A stretch of 22,663 bases of DNA, taken from NCBI GenBank assembly GCA_023444445.1, contig JAEXMK010000235.1:1-22663 (forward strand), in the 5' to 3' direction. The position numbers were made by a program, and so were the translations under genes. Of the stretch, positions 11,231 to 22,663 are shown one piece after another. Origin of the DNA: Pseudomonadota bacterium (GTDB lineage Bacteria > Pseudomonadota > Alphaproteobacteria > Rhizobiales > Rhizobiaceae). The notes beneath the pieces were generated by a model. It was not told the origin of the DNA. It did no database searches and saw only the letters and a list, made by a program, of their open reading frames with translations. Each line of letters opens with the position of its first letter. Positions within the stretch are counted from its first letter, which is position 1.

Positions 11231-11926
11231 TCAGGCCTTCAACCGCTCTTCGACGACCCGCCAGTTGACCAGCTTGTCGAGAACGGCGCGGATATGGTCG
11301 GGCTTGCGGTTTTCATAATCGAGGTAATAGGCGTGTTCCCAGATATCGATGCCGAGATAGGCCGGACGACCAACGGCCATGGGGTTGTTGCCGTCCTCAT
11401 ATCCGATCAGCGCGAGCTTGTTGTCGTCACCACGCGTCAGCCACACCCAGCCGGTGCCGAACACCGTGTCGGACACATCGACCGCGCGTTTGATGAAGCC
11501 GTCATAGTCACCGAAGGTCTCGTTGAGGGAAGCGGCGAGATCGCCTGTCGGCCGGTTCGGCCCGCCCGGAACGAATTGATCCCAATAGGCGACATGGTTC
11601 CAGGCCTGCGCGGCATTGTTGAAGATTTTGACATCGGCCGGCTCTTTCGACTTGGCGGATTGCGTCACGATCTCGACCAGTTCCATGTCGGCATAGCGCG
11701 TTCCGGCCGCAAGCGTGTTCAGCTTGTCGAAATAGGCCTTGTGGTGTTTTCCGTAATGCAGGCCGACCGTTCTTGCCGAAATGACAGGCGCAAGATCGGC
11801 CTCGGCAAAGGGAAGCTTCGGCAGTGCCAAAGGCAGAGCGGCCCGCGCGACATGCGGGCGGGGAAAGATTGCAACGGCGGCTGTTGCCGCGCCTGCGGTG
11901 AGAATGGTGCGTCTGGTGATGTCCAT
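11231..11926 (-). CDS. sodB: Iron superoxide dismutase with Tat export signal (periplasmic)
   Basis: This enzyme converts superoxide to oxygen and hydrogen peroxide. The 231-residue protein opens MDITRRTILTAG, with a twin-arginine motif and a hydrophobic stretch ending near HVARA-ALPL, so it should be folded with metal in the cytosol and exported. The metal ligands are visible: the first His in LHYGKHHKAYF, the His in WNHVAYW, and Asp and His in DIWEHAYYLDY. The FNNAAQ stretch, with Gln where manganese enzymes have Gly (AGGH), points to the iron type. Two ATGs are adjacent (11929 and 11926). The second is 5 bases after AGGAGG and is preferred; the first would be only 2 bases away. It lies upstream of the TctC-type gene on the same strand, with a 112-base gap. 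Confidence 0.92.
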   Translation of the reverse strand: MDITRRTILTAGAATAAVAIFPRPHVARAALPLALPKLPFAEADLAPVISARTVGLHYGKHHKAYFDKLNTLAAGTRYADMELVEIVTQSAKSKEPADVKIFNNAAQAWNHVAYWDQFVPGGPNRPTGDLAASLNETFGDYDGFIKRAVDVSDTVFGTGWVWLTRGDDNKLALIGYEDGNNPMAVGRPAYLGIDIWEHAYYLDYENRKPDHIRAVLDKLVNWRVVEERLKA

Positions 11927-12092
11927 CATATCCTCCTCTTGAACGGTGATATGAGACTAACCCCGAACGACGGCCCTGGTTTCCTCAGGCCGGATGCAAT
12001 TCTGTCGCGGCCATGATGATCGGCGGAAACAACGCCGTTTTGACGCGCTGCCGGGGGCGGATGGCTGGGGTTCGCAGACGCATAAAGAAAAT

Positions 12093-12121: not shown

Positions 12122-12451
12122 TCAATATCGATAATAGTCGCGACGGTCGCGGTAATCACGATAGTCCCGGCGATCACGCCATTCACGCCATTCCCGTCTC
12201 GCCTGGCGTTCACGCCATTCCCTGCGACCTTCCCAGCGATCGCGGCGATCCCAGCCGCGCTCATAACGTGGCGGGCCGTTCGGGCGGCAATGACCGCGGG
12301 GTGAAAGATGGAAGCCGCGTCCGCAGGCATAATCCACCGTCTGAACATGGGATGCCGAAGGTGCCGACGGTTGGCCGACAGGCATGGCATTCGCACCGGT
12401 GCCGAACAGGGCGCCGAAAATCAGTCCGGCGGTTAAAATCATCTTGCGCAT
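12122..12451 (-). CDS. Small secreted GCG_CRPN-type protein with charged repeat tail
   Basis: A 109-residue protein of unknown function. Residues 1-22 are a signal peptide with a probable cut after ANA. Residues 43-58 read CGRGFHLSPRGHCRPN, which fits the pattern Cys-Gly...Phe-His...Gly-x-Cys-Arg-Pro-Asn of small secreted proteins named GCG_CRPN. Two cysteines (43 and 55) could form a disulfide. From residue 64 the chain is almost only Arg, Asp, Glu, Trp and Tyr, in short repeats such as REWRE and RDYRD. At DNA level CACGCCATTC occurs three times (12175, 12184, 12211), so the tail grew by tandem duplication. The ATG follows AGGAGG with about 8 bases spacing, and an intrinsic terminator follows the stop. 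It is a single-gene transcript, divergent from the six-gene operon. Confidence 0.85.
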   Translation of the reverse strand: MRKMILTAGLIFGALFGTGANAMPVGQPSAPSASHVQTVDYACGRGFHLSPRGHCRPNGPPRYERGWDRRDRWEGRREWRERQARREWREWRDRRDYRDYRDRRDYYRY

Positions 12452-12721: not shown

Positions 12722-13873
12722 ATGAAACGCCGCACCTTTATGATGTCCGCCGCAGGCGCTGCCGCCGGTCTCGCCCTTGCGCCCCGCATGAGCTTCGCCG
12801 CTCAAGGCACGATCGACTGGTACACCAGTTCGGATACGAATATCCTCGATTTCTGGTCCAACACCGTCAAGCCCGCTTTCGAGGCGGCCAATCCCGGCCT
12901 GAAGCTCAATCTCGTCGATGCCGGCGATGGTGCTGGCGTCATCGCCATCGGTGAGCGCGCCATTGCCGCAAAGCAGACGGGCACCGATCCGCAGGCCGAT
13001 TATTTCGAAACCGCCGATCCCCTGCTGCCCGCCGGCGCCATCGACGCCGGTATCTATGTGAACATGGCGAAAGCCGGCCTTTCCAACTATTCGCGCGTCA
13101 ATCCGCTCGCCATCCGCAGCGAATACAGCCTGCCCTATCGCGGCAGCCAGGTTCTGCTTGCTTATGACACCAGCAAGCTCAAGCCGGCGGATGCACCAAA
13201 GACCTGGGAGCAGCTCGTTACCTGGATCAAGGCCAATCCCGGCCAGTTCGTTTATAACCGTCCCGACAAGGGCGGTTCGGGCGGCAACTTCGTCCGCCGC
13301 GCCATTCATCAGGTCAATGGTCTCGATCCCAAGGCCTTCACGGTCGACAACTACACCCAGGAAGCCGGTGACAAGGCTCTTGGCAAGGCTTGGGCACTTT
13401 TGGCCGATATCGCCCCTTCACTTTATGACAAGGGCGCCTATTCCTCCGGCAACACGCAATCGCTGCAGCTTCTCTCCCAGGGCGTCGTCACCATGACCCC
13501 GGTCTGGTCCGATCAGGTGCTGAAGGCCATCGATCAAGGCGTTCTGCCGAAGGAAACCGGCCTCGTCCAGCTCCAGGATCTGGCGCTTTGCGGCGATTTC
13601 TCGCGCGCCGTGGTACTTGCGAACGGCGCCAATCGCGATGCCGCCCTCAAGCTCGCTAACTTCGTGCTGTCGGAAGAAATCCAGGGCGCCATCCTCACCG
13701 AACTCGGCGGTTTCCCCGGCGTTTCCTGGGACTATGTGTCGGCCGACCTGCGCAAGCGCTTCGCCGACATCATCCCGCAGACCATTCCGACCTTCCCGGG
13801 CGGCAAATGGGAAACCGCCATCAACGATGGCTGGTATCGTCACGTCGCTCCGAACGTCGACCGCAAATCGTGA
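12722..13873 (+). CDS. ABC importer periplasmic binding protein (extracellular solute-binding family 1 / AfuA-YnjB-like)
   Basis: A 383-residue periplasmic ligand-binding protein and the first gene of a six-gene operon. It opens MKRRTFMMSAAG, a Tat-like twin-arginine signal, with a probable cut near SFA-AQG (residues 26-27). The mature part has the two-lobe fold typical of iron/thiamine/polyamine-type binding proteins: TIDWYTSSD at the start, GGSGGNF in the middle, and the late GGFPGV loop. It starts at ATG 12722, 6 bases after GGAG. The family includes iron(III) carriers, but also sugar-phosphate (AfuA) and aminoethylphosphonate binders. The two downstream phosphoester enzymes favour a phosphorylated organic ligand, which is inference. 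The stop overlaps the GTG of the next gene by GTGA. Confidence 0.88.
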   Translation: MKRRTFMMSAAGAAAGLALAPRMSFAAQGTIDWYTSSDTNILDFWSNTVKPAFEAANPGLKLNLVDAGDGAGVIAIGERAIAAKQTGTDPQADYFETADPLLPAGAIDAGIYVNMAKAGLSNYSRVNPLAIRSEYSLPYRGSQVLLAYDTSKLKPADAPKTWEQLVTWIKANPGQFVYNRPDKGGSGGNFVRRAIHQVNGLDPKAFTVDNYTQEAGDKALGKAWALLADIAPSLYDKGAYSSGNTQSLQLLSQGVVTMTPVWSDQVLKAIDQGVLPKETGLVQLQDLALCGDFSRAVVLANGANRDAALKLANFVLSEEIQGAILTELGGFPGVSWDYVSADLRKRFADIIPQTIPTFPGGKWETAINDGWYRHVAPNVDRKS

Positions 13874-14754
13874 CCGAGACTGCAGAAGGAGCGGTTCGCC
13901 CGCTCATCGACACCACGGCAAGCAGGAGGCCAGTTGGCCTCCTGCTCGTCGCCATTCCCGTTTTCCTGATGATCTGGCTGGTGATCTGGCCCGCCATCAA
14001 CGCCATCGGCCGCACGGTCTGGCGCGAGGGTGCCGACGGTCAGTCGAGCTTTGATCTGTCGAGTTACGGTTTTTTCTTCTCGGATCGTTACAGTCTCGAC
14101 AATCTCGCCGTGACGCTCTGGACCACGCTCGTCTGCGCGGTGCTCCTGCTGGTGATCTGCCTGCCGATCGCACTTTACCTCCGCTTTTCGCAGGGCCGTC
14201 TTTCGGCCTATGTGCAGGCGCTGGCCATCTTTCCCATGTTCGTGCCCTCCATCATCCTCGCCTTTGCCTTCATCCGCGTGCTGGGCCCGAACGGCATGGT
14301 GGATATATTGCTGAATGCCGTCCATCTGCCGAAAATCCGCACGCCCTATCTCACGCCCTGGGGGCCGGTGATCGGCCTTGTGTGGGACAATATTCCGCTG
14401 ACCGTGCTCATTCTGCTCGCAGGGCTTGGCAGCGTCGCAAACCAATCGGTCGAGGCTGCGCGTGACGTGGGGGCCAATGCCCTTCAGGTCTTCCGGCACA
14501 TCATCCTGCCGCGCATTTCCAACTCCATTCTCGTTGCGCTTTCCTTCTCGGTGCTCGGCATTTTTTCGTCTTTCACCCTGCCCTACCTTCTCGGCCCCGC
14601 AGCTCCCGAAATGCTCGGCCCGTTCATGCAGCGCACCTTGCGCGAAGTGCGGGACCCCTTGGGCGCCATGACCCAGGCCGTCATCGCTTTTGGCTTCTGC
14701 ATCGCGTTCGGCCTGTTCTACGTGCGCTCCGTCGCGCGCAACCAGGGAAAATGA
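13870..14754 (+). CDS. ABC importer inner-membrane permease, first subunit
   Basis: A 294-residue membrane subunit with about six helices. The cytoplasmic coupling motif reads EAARDVGANALQVFRHIILPRI, the usual EAA motif that docks on the ATPase. I chose the GTG at 13870, which overlaps the stop of the binding protein as GTGA. This gives translational coupling and no independent ribosome site is visible. An in-frame start 63 bases upstream would run inside the binding-protein gene and gives an odd basic tail. The next gene starts one base after this stop. It pairs with the second permease to form the channel. Confidence 0.9.
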   Translation: MTETAEGAVRPLIDTTASRRPVGLLLVAIPVFLMIWLVIWPAINAIGRTVWREGADGQSSFDLSSYGFFFSDRYSLDNLAVTLWTTLVCAVLLLVICLPIALYLRFSQGRLSAYVQALAIFPMFVPSIILAFAFIRVLGPNGMVDILLNAVHLPKIRTPYLTPWGPVIGLVWDNIPLTVLILLAGLGSVANQSVEAARDVGANALQVFRHIILPRISNSILVALSFSVLGIFSSFTLPYLLGPAAPEMLGPFMQRTLREVRDPLGAMTQAVIAFGFCIAFGLFYVRSVARNQGK

Positions 14755-14755
14755 C

Positions 14756-15580
14756 ATGACAAGCCTGACACGGCCGCGGCCACGCATGGACTGGCCCGGC
14801 ATCATCTTCGCCACCCTTCTCACTGTCGTCATCGTCGGGCCTCTCATCGTTGTCGGCACCTGGGCCTTCACCGAGGTCTGGCGTTTCCCCAACGTGATCC
14901 CGCAACAATTCGGTTTCCGCTTCTGGGGCCAGACGCTGGGGCGCCCCGATGTGTGGAATGCCCTGACGCTGAGCCTGCAGCTGACCACGACGGTGACCGT
15001 GCTTTCGGCGCTGATCTGCCTTCCCGCCGCCTATGCCTTTGCGCGCATGAGCTTTCCCGGCCGCAACCTCCTGTTCTTCTCCTTCCTCGCCGGCCATGCC
15101 TTTCCGAAATTCGGGCTGCTGGTGGCGATTGCCGCCATTTTCCTGCAACTCAACCTCATCGGCAATTTCTGGGGTGTTGTCCTTATCCAGCTCGTCGGCA
15201 CGCTGATGTTCATGATCTGGATTCCGGTCGCCGCCTTCCAGGCTGTCGACCGGCGCATGGAAGAGGCAGCCCGCGATGTCGGCGCCAGCCCGCTGCGGGT
15301 GTTCTGGTCGGTGACGCTGCCGCAGGCGGGACCAACCATCGCCGCCGCCGTGCTTTTGAGCTTCGTCAGCACGTTTTACGAGACCGAGGGCGCGTGGCTC
15401 ATCGGCGCGCCGGGCATCCGCACCATGCCGGTGCTGATGATCAGCTACATCAACAACCAGATGGTCATCCAATATGGCGCGGTGCTCTCCGTCCTGCTCT
15501 GGGTGCCCTCCTTCATTGCTCTCATCTTCGCCCGCCGCGTCATCGGCGGCGGCGCCTTCGCGCGCGGTTTCGGCGGTTAG
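14756..15580 (+). CDS. ABC importer inner-membrane permease, second subunit
   Basis: A 274-residue permease with about six membrane helices. Its EAA loop reads EEAARDVGASPLRVFWSVTLPQ. The ATG at 14756 (MTSLTRPRPRMDW) comes one base after the stop of the first permease, with AGGGAAA about 7 bases upstream. The protein has a short basic cytoplasmic N-terminus, then the first helix from about residue 14. The ATPase gene begins 9 bases after its stop. It belongs to the same family as the first permease and probably forms a heterodimer with it. Confidence 0.9.
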   Translation: MTSLTRPRPRMDWPGIIFATLLTVVIVGPLIVVGTWAFTEVWRFPNVIPQQFGFRFWGQTLGRPDVWNALTLSLQLTTTVTVLSALICLPAAYAFARMSFPGRNLLFFSFLAGHAFPKFGLLVAIAAIFLQLNLIGNFWGVVLIQLVGTLMFMIWIPVAAFQAVDRRMEEAARDVGASPLRVFWSVTLPQAGPTIAAAVLLSFVSTFYETEGAWLIGAPGIRTMPVLMISYINNQMVIQYGAVLSVLLWVPSFIALIFARRVIGGGAFARGFGG

Positions 15581-15589
15581 GAAATCAGC

Positions 15590-16624
15590 ATGTCCGTACT
15601 TCACATCCGCCAGGTCACGAAAACCTTCGCCGGCGGCACCAAGGCAGTCGACAGTTTCTCGCTTGATGTCGCCGATGGCGAACTCGTCTGCCTTCTCGGC
15701 CCTTCCGGTTCGGGCAAATCGACGCTGCTGCGCATGGTGGGCGGGTTCGAGCAACCGACCGGCGGGCGGATTACCATCGACGGGGAAGACGTCACCCATC
15801 TGCCGCCGGAGCGACGGCCGACCGGCATGGTGTTCCAAAGCCACGCGCTCTGGAGCCATATGAACGTCTTCAAGAACCTCGCTTTCGGCCTGAAGCTGCG
15901 TCGCATGCCCGCTGCCGAGATCAGGCAGAAAGTAGAGGCCGTTCTCGAACTCGTCGGGCTCTCGGGTTATGGCGAGCGGGCCACAAGCCAGCTTTCAGGC
16001 GGCCAGCAGCAGCGTGTGGCACTTGCCCGCTCGCTGGTTCTGGAGCCGAAAATCCTCCTGCTCGACGAACCCTTCGCCAGTCTTGACCAGCATCTGCGCG
16101 AACGGCTGCGGGAAGAGGTTCGGGATATCCAGCAGCGTCTCGGCATCACCACGCTGTTCGTCACCCACGGGCAGGACGAGGCGCTTTCCATGGCAGACCG
16201 CATCGTCGTGATGGCGAACGGTAAAACCGAACAGATCGACCGGCCGAATATCATCTATCGCGAACCGCAGACCCCGTTCGTTGCCGGCTTCATCGGCACC
16301 ATGAACCTGATCGAGGGTGCGGTTTCGAACGGCAGCTTCGCGCGCGCCGGCTTTACCTTTCCGCTTGCGGTTTCCGATGGGCCGGCCACCCTCGCCATTC
16401 GCCCGGAAGCGATCGATCTCGCGGCATCCGAAACCCCTGATGCGCATGTCCACCGCGTGACGGATTATGGCACCCATGGGCTTGTCGATCTCGGTCTTGC
16501 CGATGGTACAAGGATCAAATCCATGGTCGCCCATCCGGACATGTTCCGGGCCGGGCAAGGCGTGCGGATCACGCCCCGCGCCGTCACCCTTTATCGCGAT
16601 AATCGCCCAATCCACCGGAGCTGA
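15590..16624 (+). CDS. ABC importer ATP-binding protein with TOBE domain
   Basis: A 344-residue ATPase that powers the transporter. It has Walker A GPSGSGKS (37-44), Q-loop Gln at residue 83 (VFQSHALW), signature LSGGQQQR (135-142), Walker B ILLLDEP (155-161) and an H-loop His in FVTHGQDEAL. The C-terminal third, from about residue 245, is a TOBE-type domain, as in iron, spermidine and sugar importers. The SHALWSHMNV segment after the Q-loop differs in wording from the usual SYALFPHMTV but keeps the pattern. The ATG at 15590 follows AGGAAA. The phosphodiesterase gene starts one base after its stop. Confidence 0.93.
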   Translation: MSVLHIRQVTKTFAGGTKAVDSFSLDVADGELVCLLGPSGSGKSTLLRMVGGFEQPTGGRITIDGEDVTHLPPERRPTGMVFQSHALWSHMNVFKNLAFGLKLRRMPAAEIRQKVEAVLELVGLSGYGERATSQLSGGQQQRVALARSLVLEPKILLLDEPFASLDQHLRERLREEVRDIQQRLGITTLFVTHGQDEALSMADRIVVMANGKTEQIDRPNIIYREPQTPFVAGFIGTMNLIEGAVSNGSFARAGFTFPLAVSDGPATLAIRPEAIDLAASETPDAHVHRVTDYGTHGLVDLGLADGTRIKSMVAHPDMFRAGQGVRITPRAVTLYRDNRPIHRS

Positions 16625-16625
16625 C

Positions 16626-17462
16626 ATGAACCCGCCGATCTTCATCGAACGCGATGGCCACAGAACCTGGCTCAAATGGCATCGCGCCCGCCGCCGCGCC
16701 ACCGATCCCGTTTTCACCGGCGAACGCATCATTGAGGCGATGCGGCTTGGCGCAAGCATTGAAGTCGATCTCGTCATTCATGCCGATCATGGTTGCGCCG
16801 TGCTGCATGACCGGACGCTGGAACGGGAGACCACCGGTGCAGGCCGGGTACGCGACACGTCAGCCGCCGCACTGCGCCAGCTCCATCTGCGCGACAATGA
16901 CGGTCGGCCGATCGATGCAAAGGTGATGCTGCTCGAAGACCTCTGCGCCCTGCTTGCCCGCGAAACCGTGCATCCCGACGCCTTGCTGCAACTCGATTTC
17001 AAGGAAAATCTCCAGGCGCTTACCCCGCAGATCGTCACCGGCTTCGGGGCAAGTGTATCGTCGATCGCAGGTTCGGTGATCCTGTCGGGCGGTGATTTCG
17101 ACGCCATCGCCCAGCTGGCGGGATCAGCCCCCGGCCTGCGCACCGGCTATGACCCCTGCCATCAGGGCACGCTTGCCGAAATGCACGCGAATGGACATTA
17201 TCTGGACTTCATCAAAAACGCCCTCGCCACCGCGCCTGATGCGGGCATGATCTACCTCGCTTATGAAATCGTACTTGCCGCCGAGGATGCCGGTGTCGAC
17301 ATCATCGCCCCGATCCATGCCGCAGGTCGTCGCATCGATGCCTGGACGATCAACAGGGTAACGCCGCAATCCACCGATGCCGTCGAGCGCCTGTTGAGGC
17401 TGAAGGTCGACCAGATCACCACCGATGATCCGGAAGGGCTCGCAGAGGTTTTCAGCCGATGA
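16626..17462 (+). CDS. Glycerophosphodiester phosphodiesterase-family enzyme (cytoplasmic)
   Basis: A 278-residue TIM-barrel phosphodiesterase. Family members split glycerophosphodiesters into glycerol-3-phosphate and an alcohol; some release an inositol phosphate instead. Visible motifs are HR at 19-20 (catalytic His19), GASIEVDL (42-49, with metal-binding Glu46 and Asp48) and LHDRTLERETTG (catalytic His61). The usual PENT stretch after the first motif is absent; this position reads ATDPVFTG. The later LQLDFKE replaces the usual E-x-K segment. There is no signal peptide, so the substrate must be imported intact. The ATG at 16626 lies one base after the ATPase stop, with GGAG about 8 bases upstream. 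The stop overlaps the next ATG (ATGA). Confidence 0.85.
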   Translation: MNPPIFIERDGHRTWLKWHRARRRATDPVFTGERIIEAMRLGASIEVDLVIHADHGCAVLHDRTLERETTGAGRVRDTSAAALRQLHLRDNDGRPIDAKVMLLEDLCALLARETVHPDALLQLDFKENLQALTPQIVTGFGASVSSIAGSVILSGGDFDAIAQLAGSAPGLRTGYDPCHQGTLAEMHANGHYLDFIKNALATAPDAGMIYLAYEIVLAAEDAGVDIIAPIHAAGRRIDAWTINRVTPQSTDAVERLLRLKVDQITTDDPEGLAEVFSR

Positions 17463-18268
17463 CAGTCAATTACAGCAATATCCTGGAGCATATGGTCGCC
17501 ACCGCCCGCGAAGCCGGCGCGTTGACGCTCGACCACTTCAAACGCTTCCGCGACATTGAGATCGGCGTCAAGGGACCCGGCGATTTCGTTTCCGATGCGG
17601 ACAGGGATTCCGAGACGCTGATCCGTGAGCGTCTGCTCGGCCAATATCCGTGGGGACTTACCGGCGAGGAATTCGCACCCGTCGAGGGGGCGGATCAGGA
17701 TCATCGCTGGCTGGTCGACCCGATCGATGGCACCACCAATTTTCTCTTTGGCCAGCATTACACCATCACCATTGCGCTGCGCCGCGGCAATGAGACGATA
17801 TGTGGCCTCGTCTACAATCCCGTCTCCGACGAAATGTTTACCGCGATCAAGGGAGATGGCGCCTATCTCAATGGCGAGCGCGTGAGGGTCAATATCAGTA
17901 CCGATGTCGCCCTGATGTGTGTCGGCACCGGTCTGCCGACGCCCAATCTCTCGCTTTATCCCGGCGCCTATCAGCGCCTTGACGATATTCGCGCGCCCAT
18001 CGGTGCAGTCCGTGTCGTCGGCAGCGCTGCCAATTCCTGTGCTTATGTGGCCTGCGGCCGTCTCACCGGCTATTACGAGGAAACCGGTTTCGTTGACACA
18101 GCAGCAGGCATTCTGCTGGTTCGGGAGGCCGGTGGCATCGTGACCGACTGGTGGGGTCGCGGACCGGAATTTTATGAAAAGACGGGCACGCTGATCGTCG
18201 CCAATCCCGCGACCCATTCTTACCTGCTGGAGCACCTGCAAGGCGTTCCGCTCAAGAACCCGGCATAA
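17459..18268 (+). CDS. Inositol monophosphatase-family phosphatase (cytoplasmic)
   Basis: A 269-residue Mg-dependent phosphatase of the inositol monophosphatase superfamily. It has GDFVSDADRDSE at 41-52, the GEE metal-binding pair at 69-71, the hallmark DPIDGTTN at 87-94 (Asp87 and Asp90), and VDTAAG around Asp213 followed by LLVREAGG, matching the second motif. All four acidic ligands are present, so it should be active. Family members cleave inositol-1-phosphate, histidinol phosphate, sugar phosphates or 3'-phosphoadenosine phosphates. The motif set alone does not choose between them. Its ATG overlaps the stop of the phosphodiesterase gene as ATGA, so the two enzymes are translationally coupled. 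It is the last gene of the operon and ends 39 bases from the convergent peptide ATPase gene. Confidence 0.9.
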   Translation: MTVNYSNILEHMVATAREAGALTLDHFKRFRDIEIGVKGPGDFVSDADRDSETLIRERLLGQYPWGLTGEEFAPVEGADQDHRWLVDPIDGTTNFLFGQHYTITIALRRGNETICGLVYNPVSDEMFTAIKGDGAYLNGERVRVNISTDVALMCVGTGLPTPNLSLYPGAYQRLDDIRAPIGAVRVVGSAANSCAYVACGRLTGYYEETGFVDTAAGILLVREAGGIVTDWWGRGPEFYEKTGTLIVANPATHSYLLEHLQGVPLKNPA

Positions 18269-18307: not shown

Positions 18308-20119
18308 TCAGGCCACCTGCACCAAATGGCCGGGCGACACCGTCCTGTAGTTACGCGCAGGTGTTTCATATCCCATCGCCCGTACCGGGCTCTTCAGCTC
18401 ATCATTGGATATGCCCCGCCTTATCCCCCGTCTTGACGGATCGGGCACTGGCACGGCCGCCATCAGCTTTTTTGTGTAGGGATGCTGCGGATTGTCGAAG
18501 ACGGCCGCCCGCGGGCCGATCTCGACGATCTCGCCCAGATACATCACCGCGACACGATGGCTGACACGCTCCACCACCGCCATGTCATGCGAGATGAACA
18601 GAAAGGCCAGGTTGAGGCTTTGTTGCAGGTCGAGTAGCAAATTGCACACCTGTGCCTTGATCGAAACATCGAGTGCGGAGACGCTTTCGTCGGCGACGAT
18701 AACCTTCGGATCAAGGGCAAGCGCACGGGCAATGGCGATGCGCTGGCGTTGGCCGCCCGAAAATTCATGGGGGTAGCGATTGGCCATGTCTGCTGAAAGG
18801 CCGACCTTTTCGAGAAGATCGGCTGTCTTTTCCTTCGCCTGTTTCGTGGTGCCCAGCCTGTGCTTGATGAAGGGCTCAGAAATCGCAGTACCGACAGTCA
18901 TGCGCGGATTGAGCGAGGAGAACGGATCCTGAAAGATCATCTGCACGGATTTGCGCATATTGCGCAGCCCGACCGTATCGAGACGCATCACGTCATAACC
19001 ATCGAGTGACACATCGCCGGACGACGGCTCAACAAGCCGCATGATCGAGCGGCCGGTGGTGGATTTGCCACAGCCTGATTCGCCTACAAGCGACAGCGTT
19101 TCACCCTGGAAGAGGTCGAAGGAGACGTTTTCCACGGCGTGAACCGCACCCGTCTGACGCGCCAGCAGGCCGGATCGGATCGGAAAACGCGTCACAAGGT
19201 TCTTCACCGACAGGACCGGCGTCTGACCGCTCGCAACGGTCTTGGCCACCTCTTCAGGCTCAGTCGAAAGACCGGTCTTCATGTCGAGCACGGCAAAACG
19301 CGTCGGCCATTGCCGGTCACGCATTGAGCCGAGCTTCGGCACCGCCGAAAGCAGCGCCCGTGTATAGGGATGCTTGCCGCGTTTGAAGATCTCCTCGGTC
19401 GGCCCGGTCTCGACCTCGTCGCCGCGATACATCACGATCGTTCGGTCGGCGATTTCGGCCACGACGCCCATATCATGCGTGATGAAGAGCACCGACATGC
19501 CCTCCTCTTCCTGCAGCAGTTTTATCAGGTCGAGGATCTGGCCCTGAATGGTCACGTCGAGCGCGGTCGTCGGCTCGTCGGTGATCAGCAGTTTCGGTCG
19601 TGAGGCGAGCGCCATGGCGATCATCACGCGCAGGCGCATGCCGCCCGAAAACTGGTGCGGATATTCGTCGAAACGGCCCGCTGCATTGGGAATTCGGACC
19701 TTTTCCAGAAGCCGCACCGTCTCGGCCCGCGCCTCACGTCTCGAAAGCCCCTTGTGCCGAATGAGGACTTCCGAAATCTGGCGGCCGATGGTGAAGATCG
19801 GGTTGAGCGACGTCATCGGCTCCTGAAAGATCATCGAGATATCGTTGCCGCGTACACCGCGCATTTCCTTTTCGGAAAGCGAAAGCAGATCGCGGCCGTT
19901 GAGCAGCACCTCGCCTTCGATCCTGCTGGAGGCCGGGGCAAGCAGGCGCATCAGCGACAGCGACGTCACCGATTTACCGGAACCGGATTCCCCCACAATG
20001 GCGACGGTTTCGCCGGGCGCGACATCGAAGGACACATCACGCACGACACTCTTCCAGGCGCCATCGATAAGGAAGGAGGTGGTAAGGTTGCGGACGGAGA
20101 GGACTGGTTTTGTCTCCAT
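18308..20119 (-). CDS. Peptide ABC importer ATPase, fused DppD-DppF type (two ATP-binding domains)
   Basis: A 603-residue protein with two complete ATPase domains in one chain, powering a dipeptide/oligopeptide-type importer. Domain 1 has Walker A GESGSGKS (43-50), signature FSGGMRLR (157-164) and Walker B LLITDEPTTALD. Domain 2 has Walker A GESGCGKS (346-353), signature FSGGQRQR and Walker B VIVADESVSALD. Each is followed by the HPYT segment typical of oligopeptide ATPases. Most bacteria encode these as two genes; fused forms are common in Rhizobiales. The ATG at 20119 (METKPVLSV) lies 4 bases after the stop of the transpeptidase gene, which marks a shared transcript. The first signature has Leu where most relatives have Gln. 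Confidence 0.93.
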   Translation of the reverse strand: METKPVLSVRNLTTSFLIDGAWKSVVRDVSFDVAPGETVAIVGESGSGKSVTSLSLMRLLAPASSRIEGEVLLNGRDLLSLSEKEMRGVRGNDISMIFQEPMTSLNPIFTIGRQISEVLIRHKGLSRREARAETVRLLEKVRIPNAAGRFDEYPHQFSGGMRLRVMIAMALASRPKLLITDEPTTALDVTIQGQILDLIKLLQEEEGMSVLFITHDMGVVAEIADRTIVMYRGDEVETGPTEEIFKRGKHPYTRALLSAVPKLGSMRDRQWPTRFAVLDMKTGLSTEPEEVAKTVASGQTPVLSVKNLVTRFPIRSGLLARQTGAVHAVENVSFDLFQGETLSLVGESGCGKSTTGRSIMRLVEPSSGDVSLDGYDVMRLDTVGLRNMRKSVQMIFQDPFSSLNPRMTVGTAISEPFIKHRLGTTKQAKEKTADLLEKVGLSADMANRYPHEFSGGQRQRIAIARALALDPKVIVADESVSALDVSIKAQVCNLLLDLQQSLNLAFLFISHDMAVVERVSHRVAVMYLGEIVEIGPRAAVFDNPQHPYTKKLMAAVPVPDPSRRGIRRGISNDELKSPVRAMGYETPARNYRTVSPGHLVQVA

Positions 20120-20123
20120 GGTC

Positions 20124-21908
20124 TCACCGCCCCACCGCATAGGCCTGCATCAACCGCGGTGTTGCGGCGGCGCGAAGCAAGCCGTCCGCATCGCGGCGCG
20201 CGGCGGTGAGCCGCCCGACAGACCAGGCATCGGCAACGGTGACTCGGTGGCCTCGACGGCGAAGCTCCTGCAAGGTCTCTTCTCCCACCGAGCTTTCGAC
20301 CATGATTTCGCCAGGCGAGCTTGTGCGAGGATAAAACGAACCCGGGAAATGCGACGTGTGGAACAGCGGCATGTCGATGGACGCCTGCAGGTTCTTGCCG
20401 TGATGGGCATAACGCAGGAAGAAGGGCAGCTGCCACTGGTCCTGCTGGTCGCCACCCGGCGTACCGAAGACCATGGAAGGCCGGCCCTGATGCAGCGCAA
20501 GCGAGGGCGTCAACGTGGTGCGCGGGCGTTTACCCGGCGTAAGCGAGGTCCGCAGGCCTTTCTTCAGCCAGAACATCTGGGCGCGGGAATTCAGCGCGAA
20601 ACCGAGACCCGGCACGATGGGCGAGGATTGCAGCCAGCCGCCCGATGGCGTCGTGGAAACCATGTTGCCCCAGCGGTCGATGACATCGATATGCACGGTG
20701 TCACCGCGCTTTTCGGTCAGATGCGACATGGTCGGCTCGTAGACGGCGCCCTTGCCGCTCATCTCGGCCAGCATCGCCATTGTCGAGTCCACCTGCTTTT
20801 CGTAACCCGGCACGATGCCTGGACGCAGCTCCAGCGAGGCCTCACTACCGATCAGCGCCCGGCGATCGGCACTGTATCCCTCGGAGAGAAGATACTCCGT
20901 TGGAATCTGCCCGAATTCCGGATCGCCGTAATAGACTTCGCGGTCAGCAAAGGCGAGCTTCATGGCTTCGACCAGGGTGTGGATGAAATCGGGACCAGAT
21001 GGATCCATGGCAGCAATGTCGAAACCCTTCAGAAGCGCAAGCGATTGCAGCAGAACCGGACCCTGCCCCCATGCGGGCGTCTTGGCAATCGTCCAGTCGT
21101 GATAATCCAGCGTCTGCGGCGCTTCCACTGTAGCGCTCCAACCGGCCATATCCTGCGCCGTCAGCACGCCCTTGTGCCTTGTGCCGCTGGCATCCATCAC
21201 CTCTGCGGTGCTGACGTAACTGTCGATGGCTTCCGCGACGAAACCCCGGTAGAAGGCATCGCGTGCCGCCTCGATCTGATTTTCGCGGCCAGAACGCGCT
21301 TCAGCTTCGGTGACGATCCGCTTATAGGTCGCCGCCAGAACCGGATTACGAAAATTGGCTTGAGGCTCCGGCGCGGCACCGCCCGGCAGCCACGTTTCAT
21401 AGGATGTCGGCCATTCCTTCTCGAAGAAATCGGCCAGCCCCTTGATGGTGGCAGAGACACGCGGCAGCGTTGGATGCCCATGTTCGGCATAATAGATGGC
21501 CGGTTCCAGCACGTCGCGCGCGCTCATCGTGCCATAGTCGCGCAACATCAGCATCCAGCCATCGAAGGCGCCTGGGATGACGGTGGCAAGCAGCCCATCG
21601 CCGGGGATGAGCTTCAGACCTTCCGAAGTATAATGTTCAATCGTCGCACCGCTCGGGGCCGGGCCCTGGGCGCAGATGACCTCCACCTTATCCTTCTGTT
21701 TCGAGTAAAACACGGCGGGCATATCGCCGCCTGGACCGCACAGATGCGGCTCGACAATCTGCAGCACGAAGCCGGTGGCGACGGCGGCGTCGAAGGCATT
21801 GCCACCCTTCTCGAGGATCGCCATGCCGACTGCCGAGGCGATCCAGTGGGTTGAGGTGACGACGCCGAAGGTGCCAAGGATTTCAGGGCGTGTGGTGAAA
21901 TCAGTCAT
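20124..21908 (-). CDS. Gamma-glutamyltranspeptidase-family hydrolase without signal peptide
   Basis: A 594-residue member of the gamma-glutamyltranspeptidase family, N-terminal-nucleophile hydrolases that cut themselves into a large and a small subunit. The predicted nucleophile and new N-terminus of the small subunit is Thr404 in DTVHIDVIDRWGNMVS. N-terminal features such as GMAILEKGGNAFDAAVA and CGPGGDM are typical. The start MTDFTTRPEILGTFG has no signal peptide, so it should act in the cytoplasm, unlike classical periplasmic enzymes. The ATG at 21908 follows AAGGA by about 8 bases. It sits between a permease gene (21-base gap) and the fused ATPase gene (4-base gap), so its substrate is probably what the transporter brings in. 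Gamma-glutamyl peptides are one option; other amides are possible. Confidence 0.88.
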   Translation of the reverse strand: MTDFTTRPEILGTFGVVTSTHWIASAVGMAILEKGGNAFDAAVATGFVLQIVEPHLCGPGGDMPAVFYSKQKDKVEVICAQGPAPSGATIEHYTSEGLKLIPGDGLLATVIPGAFDGWMLMLRDYGTMSARDVLEPAIYYAEHGHPTLPRVSATIKGLADFFEKEWPTSYETWLPGGAAPEPQANFRNPVLAATYKRIVTEAEARSGRENQIEAARDAFYRGFVAEAIDSYVSTAEVMDASGTRHKGVLTAQDMAGWSATVEAPQTLDYHDWTIAKTPAWGQGPVLLQSLALLKGFDIAAMDPSGPDFIHTLVEAMKLAFADREVYYGDPEFGQIPTEYLLSEGYSADRRALIGSEASLELRPGIVPGYEKQVDSTMAMLAEMSGKGAVYEPTMSHLTEKRGDTVHIDVIDRWGNMVSTTPSGGWLQSSPIVPGLGFALNSRAQMFWLKKGLRTSLTPGKRPRTTLTPSLALHQGRPSMVFGTPGGDQQDQWQLPFFLRYAHHGKNLQASIDMPLFHTSHFPGSFYPRTSSPGEIMVESSVGEETLQELRRRGHRVTVADAWSVGRLTAARRDADGLLRAAATPRLMQAYAVGR

Positions 21909-21929
21909 TCCGATATTCCTTGTAAAAAA

Positions 21930-22663
21930 TCATGCTTCGCGCGGATCGAGCGCATCGCGCAGGCCATCGCCCAGAAGATTAAAACCGATGACGACGAGGA
22001 AGATGGCGATGCCGGGCCACATCGTCATCCATGGCGCCTGGCTCAAGAAGTTCTTGGCGGTGTTCAGCATTGAACCCCAGGAAGGCGCGGGCGCCTGCTG
22101 GCCAAGCCCGAGGAAGGAAAGGCTTGCCTCCGCGATGATGGCGGTCGCGACCGTCAGCGTCGCCTGCACGATGATGGGGGCAAAGACATTTGGCAGGATG
22201 TAGCGGGTCATAATATCGATGTGGTTGAGGCCGATAGACTTCGCGCCCTCTACATAATCCTCCATCTTGACGGCCAGCACCTGCCCGCGCGTCAGCCTTA
22301 CGAAGATGGGCATGGCGGAAAGGCCGATCGCGATCATCGCATTGGTGAGGCTCGGGCCCAGGAAAGCGGCGAGCGCGATCGCCATGATGAGGAACGGCAT
22401 GGCGAGTAGCGCTTCAGTGATACGGGAGATCGCCATATCAACCCAGCCGCCGAAATAGCCGGAGATCAGCCCGAAGGGGACGCCGATCACCACCGCGATC
22501 ATAACGGAGACGACGCCGGCCATCAACGAAGCGCGGGCGCCATAGATCATGCGCGAGAGAATATCGCGGCCGAGATCATCTGTGCCGAGCCAGTGAGCGG
22601 CCGACGGCGCCTTGCGGATGGCCGACCAACTGGTCGCGACCGGGTCGGCAATCGGCAGGATGG
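21930..22663 (-). CDS. Peptide ABC importer permease, DppC/OppC type (5' end outside window)
   Basis: This gene is cut by the window edge. The reading frame stays open from 22663, where the partial protein reads LPIADPVATSW, through HWLGTDDLGRDILSRMIYGARASL, the usual N-terminal region of DppC/OppC permeases. An internal ATG at 22550 is therefore not the start. The visible part has about five membrane helices. It also has the cytoplasmic motif DYVEGAKSIGLNHIDIMTRY and ends GDGLRDALDPREA, a standard C-terminus of the family. It forms the channel with a DppB-type partner expected just upstream, outside the window, and feeds the operon with the transpeptidase and fused ATPase. Confidence 0.93.
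   Translation of the reverse strand, partial: ILPIADPVATSWSAIRKAPSAAHWLGTDDLGRDILSRMIYGARASLMAGVVSVMIAVVIGVPFGLISGYFGGWVDMAISRITEALLAMPFLIMAIALAAFLGPSLTNAMIAIGLSAMPIFVRLTRGQVLAVKMEDYVEGAKSIGLNHIDIMTRYILPNVFAPIIVQATLTVATAIIAEASLSFLGLGQQAPAPSWGSMLNTAKNFLSQAPWMTMWPGIAIFLVVIGFNLLGDGLRDALDPREA

Follow-up and report, generated by a model that had tools for sequence, protein, structure and literature searches.

A conserved six-gene operon of Alphaproteobacteria as a candidate route for the import and breakdown of an inositol phosphodiester

The window analysed here is the whole of a 22,663-nucleotide stretch from a soil-dwelling member of the Rhizobiaceae (assembly GCA_023444445.1, contig JAEXMK010000235.1), and its subject is a row of six plus-strand genes at positions 12722-18268. 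The row starts with a periplasmic substrate-binding protein of 383 residues (12722..13873), which is followed by two ABC permeases (13870..14754, with a GTG start, and 14756..15580), an ABC ATPase with a TOBE domain (15590..16624), a GDPD-family phosphodiesterase of 278 residues (16626..17462) and a phosphatase of the inositol monophosphatase (IMPase) family of 269 residues (17459..18268). All six genes exceed Pfam cut-offs, the binding protein with SBP_bac_8/SBP_bac_1, both permeases with BPD_transp_1, the ATPase with ABC_tran and TOBE_2, and the enzymes with GDPD and Inositol_P; the GDPD was scanned as a longer open reading frame whose start, at 16467, lies within the ATPase gene. The five junctions are, in order, a GTGA overlap, 1 base, 9 bases, 1 base and an ATGA overlap. 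When the coordinates were derived anew, the six genes and each of these junctions came out as the initial annotation, made from the sequence letters alone, had given them. The arrangement is far beyond chance and recurs in dozens of loci.

The two enzymes keep the hallmarks of their families. The GDPD scores 60 bits against a PF03009 cut-off of 23.6, and its AlphaFold2 model (pLDDT 94), which was used for the fold only, has the solved GDPD 2pz0 as its best match (TM 0.69/0.79). Its catalytic and metal residues H19, E46, D48, H61 and K126 are retained, the first four being invariant in the 13 rows of alignment A8. The first active-site block (H19-R20, E46-x-D48 and H61-D62, at 16680..16811, plus strand) contains an E-x-D and an HD that align to 2pz0, and we take its HR, E-x-D and HD residues to have the catalytic and metal-binding roles usually given to them. 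Among 28 GDPDs compared, the protein belongs to a clade of its own (support 100/99), which we call the KWHR subfamily after an invariant motif. It falls far short of the equivalog NF006989 (PRK09454; 37.8 versus 264 bits), presumably the UgpQ model. The IMPase scores 166.6 bits against a PF00459 cut-off of 27, matches SuhB/IMPase structures by sequence and keeps the metal ligands GEE (69-71), DPIDGTTN (87-94) and D213. The GEE and DPIDGTTN motifs lie at 17663..17740 (plus strand), and G69, E70, E71 and D87-N94 are invariant in alignment A3, which consists of 7 diverse IMPases. Against the inositol-1-monophosphatase equivalog NF008027 it reaches 152.1 bits, below the cut-off of 332. Both enzymes are probably cytoplasmic, because neither has an N-terminal hydrophobic stretch: among all 12-residue stretches near the start (residues 1-45), the highest mean hydropathy reaches 0.76 and 0.77, compared with 1.42 for the ATPase, itself cytoplasmic, 1.56 for the binding protein and 3.1 for the permeases. 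Judged by hydropathy, this agrees with the earlier statement that both lack export signals.

What kind of importer precedes them? The binding protein begins with MKRRTF, a twin-arginine (Tat)-like RR-x-F leader spanning about residues 1-26, and R3, R4 and F6 are invariant in the 20 sequences of alignment A6. Equally invariant is the stretch K183-N189 (KGGSGGN, encoded at 13268..13288, plus strand), which, judged from its conservation, is a candidate phosphate-binding loop. Three further GDPD-IMPase operons (L090, L132 and L139) have binding proteins that are 24-27% identical to that of the window, and these share K-G-G-S-G; Escherichia coli YnjB reads PDFTG at this position. The class of the protein is less easily named. 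It scores 24.5 bits against Pfam SBP_bac_6 (PF13343), the family to which AfuA belongs, a near miss of the cut-off of 24.6; a single-sequence search of the PDB gave no match at 1e-3, and the nearest NCBIfam model, the YnjB-like PRK11622, stays far under its cut-off (84.8 versus 203). Profile scores therefore do not establish the iron/AfuA type that the initial annotation assigned to the importer. A family profile built from 7 binding-protein sequences found one PDB entry below 1e-3 (4i1d, 7e-4) and weak, partial matches up to 0.1 to ferric-, polyamine- and other binding proteins, several of them ferric-binding, so that by sequence a remote tie to the ferric-binding class may exist. The NCBIfam models of the 2-aminoethylphosphonate importer PhnS, PhnU, PhnV and PhnT2 all remained below cut-off (33 versus 395, 42 versus 283, 68.5 versus 359 and 347 versus 458). 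A Foldseek list obtained from the predicted structure, comprising thiamine-, metal-citrate-, iron- and sugar-binding proteins at a TM of about 0.3, was not used.

The operon is well conserved from either end. A scan of genome contigs confirmed 168 relatives of the GDPD, of which the best 80 loci were kept; a second set, which overlaps the first in species, was anchored on the binding protein and drew on 397 genomes of the order, with 43 matches at 1e-60 in 35 genomes giving 42 regions plus the operon of genome G001. According to the gene caller, binding protein and ATPase lie just upstream of the GDPD in 71 of the 76 loci with enough upstream sequence. Locus L041 makes a 72nd: the caller dropped its GDPD, and by tblastn the locus has both enzymes as well as the genes of the transporter. 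Without a transporter just upstream are L016 and L023, where GDPD-IMPase follows a thiamine operon, L057, and L087, where the GDPD stands alone. Of the 75 loci whose downstream sequence suffices, 73 have an IMPase within three genes of the GDPD, 48 of them on its strand and 25 convergent; L041 and L087 are the two not scored with one. Seen from the binding protein, relatives of at least 55% identity have a GDPD in the region in 28 of 30 cases, more distant ones in 0/12. The IMPase is likewise in the region in 28/30; the exceptions are L233 and also L241, where the contig ends, and in L234 it lies 2 kb off. The enzyme genes thus stay beside the transporter in relatives, as a dedicated operon would have it; their separation was what the initial annotation had named as a reason to abandon its proposal. 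Hosts include many Rhizobiaceae and also Devosia, Ketogulonicigenium, Alloyangia and Roseinatronobacter. A class-wide search met the GDPD subfamily in 1/385 genomes, which makes it rare outside its own groups. The solitary GDPD of L087 (7965-8900; 55% identity) comes from the actinobacterium Gordonia lacunae and suggests transfer between phyla. In Roseinatronobacter a CehA/McbA-family hydrolase occupies the position of the IMPase (L003:7853-9235), possibly as a replacement of the phosphatase step, and several Devosia loci have related genes upstream.

Evidence on the ligand comes from inositol catabolism (iol) genes. In genomes G190 and G338, iolCJ-iolD-iolE-iolB diverge from a dehydrogenase gene and iolG, which are followed on the same strand by binding protein, two permeases, ATPase and GDPD; the IMPase gene is convergent. 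The direct neighbour of the binding-protein gene in G190 is iolG, and the core iol cluster there includes an RpiR-type regulator; in G338 iolG and the binding-protein gene are separated by a gene for a peptidoglycan-hydrolase-like protein with GH108 and peptidoglycan-binding domains (L257:11316-13355). All iol proteins tested in these genomes exceed their NCBIfam cut-offs (IolG 449 and 442 versus 355, IolD 943 and 940 versus 715, IolE 387 and 387 versus 290, IolB 330 and 333 versus 205, kinase-aldolase 721 and 717 versus 600). In the family of G190 and G338, represented by 28 genomes, a GDPD is matched at 1e-30 in ten, and five of these ten have it within 7 kb of iolG, where 0.03 would be expected by chance. 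In the other three, G285, G159 and G459, iolG is directly followed on its own strand by the GDPD after 192, 182 and 84 bases, and a search for the binding protein at 1e-80 gave no match. At a further locus, L074, iolE (365 versus 290) directly follows the IMPase. As a control, 108 regions that surround GDPD genes of any kind in 61 genomes of Rhizobiaceae (about 6 kb to either side) were put to the tblastn test that detects the iol genes above, and it found none. Co-occurrence points the same way, with iolG over cut-off in 41/42 genomes that have the GDPD and in 125/355 of those that lack it (Fisher 3e-16, counting genomes without correction for kinship or genome size). Because of this linkage, an inositol-containing ligand is supported.

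How might such a ligand be used? We envision that the binding protein captures an inositol phosphodiester in the periplasm and that the ABC importer brings it into the cell whole. The GDPD would then cut the diester in the cytoplasm and the IMPase would take the phosphate off the phosphorylated product, so that free myo-inositol could enter the iol pathway encoded elsewhere in the genome. Glycerophosphoinositol is the best-supported candidate for the ligand, as suggested by the gene neighbourhoods of relatives. We propose that the phosphate stays on inositol, with inositol phosphate and glycerol as the products, because glycerol-3-phosphate is directly usable and its release would leave the IMPase hard to explain; the proposed products would explain why the IMPase is retained almost without exception. 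The diester would serve as a source of carbon rather than of phosphate. Weak hints fit such carbon use with surplus phosphate: LacI-type regulators upstream in 26/80 of the GDPD-anchored loci, a sodium/phosphate (Na/Pi) transporter gene in 10/80, and no excess of Pho-box-like sites. With a single consensus, the window contains two such sites with at most three mismatches where 1.3 are expected, none above chance, and an operon for phosphate starvation was on this basis set aside. Both possible cuts of glycerophosphoinositol have precedents in mammalian GDE1 and GDE3 (PMC3725514).

We estimate at about 0.6 the probability that an inositol phosphodiester, glycerophosphoinositol being the likeliest, is taken up whole by the importer of the operon and that its inositol is fed into the iol pathway. 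Several points weigh against it. The window itself contains no iol gene, and a true iol gene lies beside the operon in only 1/80 GDPD-anchored and 2/30 binding-protein-anchored loci. The five genomes with GDPD next to iolG belong to one family and maybe reflect one event; given common descent, we do not count them as independent. The co-occurrence statistic ignores kinship and genome size, and within one family it shrinks to 10/10 with the GDPD versus 12/18 without (p 0.049). GDPDs have been described as unselective for the alcohol and as leaving the phosphate on glycerol, which would make the IMPase less needed (PMC4926365). The predicted structure of the binding protein (pLDDT 57.5) is too poor for its cleft to be read. 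Finally, some loci, mostly of Devosia, are flanked by MurQ- and NagB-like genes and four by thiamine genes. On balance, the part of the initial annotation that saw an operon for uptake and cytoplasmic cleavage of an inositol-containing diester has gained from conservation and iol linkage; glycerophosphoinositol as the ligand is strengthened as an interpretation and is as yet unproven.

Alternatively, the ligand might be an agrocinopine-like phosphodiester of a sugar, or some other sugar-phospho-polyol from plants or microbes, with GDPD and IMPase acting like AccF and AccG of the acc operon. That operon follows the same logic in three steps and has GDPD and IMPase genes that overlap, and both the LacI-type regulators and the many Rhizobiaceae among the hosts would suit this idea. 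The transporter, however, is of another class, the distribution takes in Devosia, Ketogulonicigenium, Alloyangia and Roseinatronobacter, and the iol linkage would be left aside; the GDPD also falls into a clade different from that of AccF, although a joint grouping is not formally rejected (approximately unbiased (AU) test, p 0.08, no rejection at 0.05). We regard a ligand of this kind as unlikely. Slightly less probable still is a broad scavenger of glycerophosphodiesters (glycerophosphocholine, glycerophosphoethanolamine, glycerophosphoglycerol and others) that would serve mainly for phosphorus, as a non-Ugp analogue of Ugp-UgpQ. A GDPD-family enzyme is what such a system needs, and the lack of selectivity for the alcohol ascribed to GDPDs would favour it, but it would not account for the nearly constant IMPase or the iol linkage, and neither the Pho-box count nor the Na/Pi transporter genes, which fit a surplus of phosphate, speak for phosphorus hunger.

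It is improbable that the importer takes a phosphomonoester, such as an inositol phosphate or a hexose phosphate, while the GDPD acts on some minor or unrelated diester. Phosphomonoesters are bound by P5PA and by AfuA, the latter predicted as an iron transporter, and two relatives of the binding protein (L227 and L229) have an IMPase and no adjacent GDPD. Against this stands the GDPD next to 28 of the 30 relatives, and in the two exceptional genomes the contig with the binding-protein gene also has a GDPD of this subfamily, though farther off, at about 11 and 18 kb. That the gene set is a mere accretion whose real role lies with its thiamine or amino-sugar neighbours is very improbable, since thiC-thiO-thiG-thiE directly precedes the operon (L021, L041) or a GDPD-IMPase pair without transporter (L016, L023) in 4/80 loci only, and MurQ-like genes occur near nine loci and NagB-like genes near four, whereas the six-gene set is general. 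TPP (thiamine pyrophosphate) riboswitches lie before thiC in L016 and L023.

Does the pairing of GDPD and IMPase extend beyond this operon? In 61 Rhizobiaceae genomes we found 111 GDPD matches, and the gene caller recovered the GDPD in 89 of 108 regions, which were scored. An IMPase is the next gene in 5/89, in addition to the window type in G001; random gene placement, with 4,400 genes assumed per genome and per-genome IMPase counts, predicts 0.27 for all 111. The pairs keep varied company: an acc-like operon in L115, an SBP_bac_8 binding protein with a UgpC-like ATPase under the cut-off in L120 (profile-tested), the distant relatives of the window's binding protein in L132 and L139 (as in L090), and in L164 (1742-9665) a single row of ugp-like transporter (UgpC 454 versus 432, UgpB 294 versus 411), GDPD, IMPase and Na/Pi carrier gene. 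GDPDs with IMPase partners are spread over several clades and a single clade of all partner IMPases is rejected (p 1e-35, with long branches present), and the pair therefore seems, from these trees, to have been assembled more than once. A joint grouping of the two IMPase groups within the window operon type is not rejected (p 0.32), and for this reason we do not claim two recruitments there. The initial annotation had considered the pairing with an ABC importer not of the UgpBAEC type unusual; it is less so, given that acc and other ABC systems carry the same pair.

From here a more far-reaching proposal can be put together, which we hold tentatively and consider somewhat short of an even bet. 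The operon would be the first recognised bacterial route dedicated to importing and breaking down glycerophosphoinositol as a carbon source, and the cut made by its GDPD subfamily would be the less usual one, after which inositol keeps the phosphate that the IMPase then removes. GDPD-IMPase pairs would be a plug-in cassette, joined repeatedly to different ABC importers and sometimes to a Na/Pi carrier for the surplus phosphate, as a general way to eat phosphodiesters for carbon.

The distant paralogues of the binding protein (below 55% identity), ten of whose 12 neighbourhoods were mapped, keep other company. In L245 (6439-8087 and 12525-13226) one lies with a PhnF-like regulator (152 versus 156.8 bits), a CehA/McbA-type hydrolase and a phosphonate-type hexapeptide transferase (285 versus 202), and perhaps belongs to a phosphonate or organophosphate importer. 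Several others are accompanied by a ROK-family gene with IolE-like and IolG-like genes, whose products, where tested, stay well under the equivalog cut-offs (L247: 162 versus 290 and 84 versus 355). In L246 (217-4517) two permease-like genes, a LacI regulator, an IMPase and a metallophosphodiesterase resembling SpdA (260 versus 400 bits) stand beside a paralogue without GDPD; this is perhaps another diesterase-phosphatase cassette, built with an unrelated diesterase.

In the window, the operon is flanked by minus-strand genes. Upstream are an Fe/Mn superoxide dismutase (11231-11929) with a twin-arginine-like leader by eye, which is perhaps exported, and a secreted-looking protein of 109 residues (12122-12451) that is rich in the residues R, D and Y and has no Pfam match; by eye, its gene has a good ribosome-binding site. 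Downstream lies a glutathione-type set (18308-22661) of GsiA-like double ATPase (851 bits, cut-off 1077), gamma-glutamyltranspeptidase and transporter permease, which is kept beside the operon in several Agrobacterium loci.

Glycerophosphoinositol is a leftover of eukaryotic membrane lipids. Compounds of this kind are made by all eukaryotic cells (PMC3725514), and among the literature matches listed, judged by title and the start of the abstract, none concerned a bacterial system dedicated to it. The accessible parts of PMC4526662, PMC6546132, PMC12718374, PMC9430895, PMC4926365, PMC4546632, PMC3725514 and PMC8427247 do not describe the operon, and the main text of the large iol survey among them (PMC9430895) does not mention glycerophospho, phosphodiester or monophosphatase. 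If our reading is right, a conserved, unnamed operon of plant- and soil-associated Alphaproteobacteria would gain a substrate and an order of enzymes, and lipid turnover would be linked to inositol catabolism. The wider pattern would help to assign functions to many GDPD and inositol monophosphatase genes that lie beside ABC transporters.

How does the operon compare with known systems? UgpBAEC-UgpQ also joins an ABC importer to a cytoplasmic GDPD, but it is of the CUT1 type, has no IMPase and is under phosphate-starvation control, whereas the operon described here has another binding protein, an IMPase and no Pho-box signal. AfuABC (hexose-phosphate) and P5PA (pyridoxal-phosphate) resemble it as binding-protein-dependent ABC importers of a phosphorylated organic ligand; they differ in that the binding protein of the window lacks a single-sequence PDB match at 1e-3 and lies just under the SBP_bac_6 cut-off. 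GpxB, of the PhnT family (PhnD-type), and UgpB (CUT1) are binding proteins for glycerol-1/3-phosphate and serve its import for carbon (PMC12718374). The use of imported phosphate compounds as a carbon source would be a common trait, although the window's binding protein matches neither family by the Pfam and NCBIfam profiles listed. The iol cluster adjoins the operon in two genomes and the GDPD of this type in a further three, and is not adjacent in most loci, the window included. The closest parallel is acc (AccA-AccBCDE, AccF, AccG), as represented by L089, a locus that we identify as acc by its gene order and its place next to traR and opine genes, the record itself not bearing that name. 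There, too, an ABC importer, a GDPD-family diesterase and an IMPase-family phosphatase form one operon with overlapping enzyme genes; the diester enters the cell intact and is cleaved there, with AccF leaving the phosphate on a sugar, and AccG is named a putative phosphatase (PMC4526662). In contrast, the acc transporter is annotated as oligopeptide-type with two ATPases, AccF belongs to another GDPD clade and aligns with the GDPD of the window over no more than 45 residues, AccG sits on another IMPase branch (deep IMPase branches being weakly supported), and the ligand differs. By its sequences, then, the operon is not acc, as transporter class, GDPD clade and IMPase branch all differ, and yet it is predicted to work as acc does.

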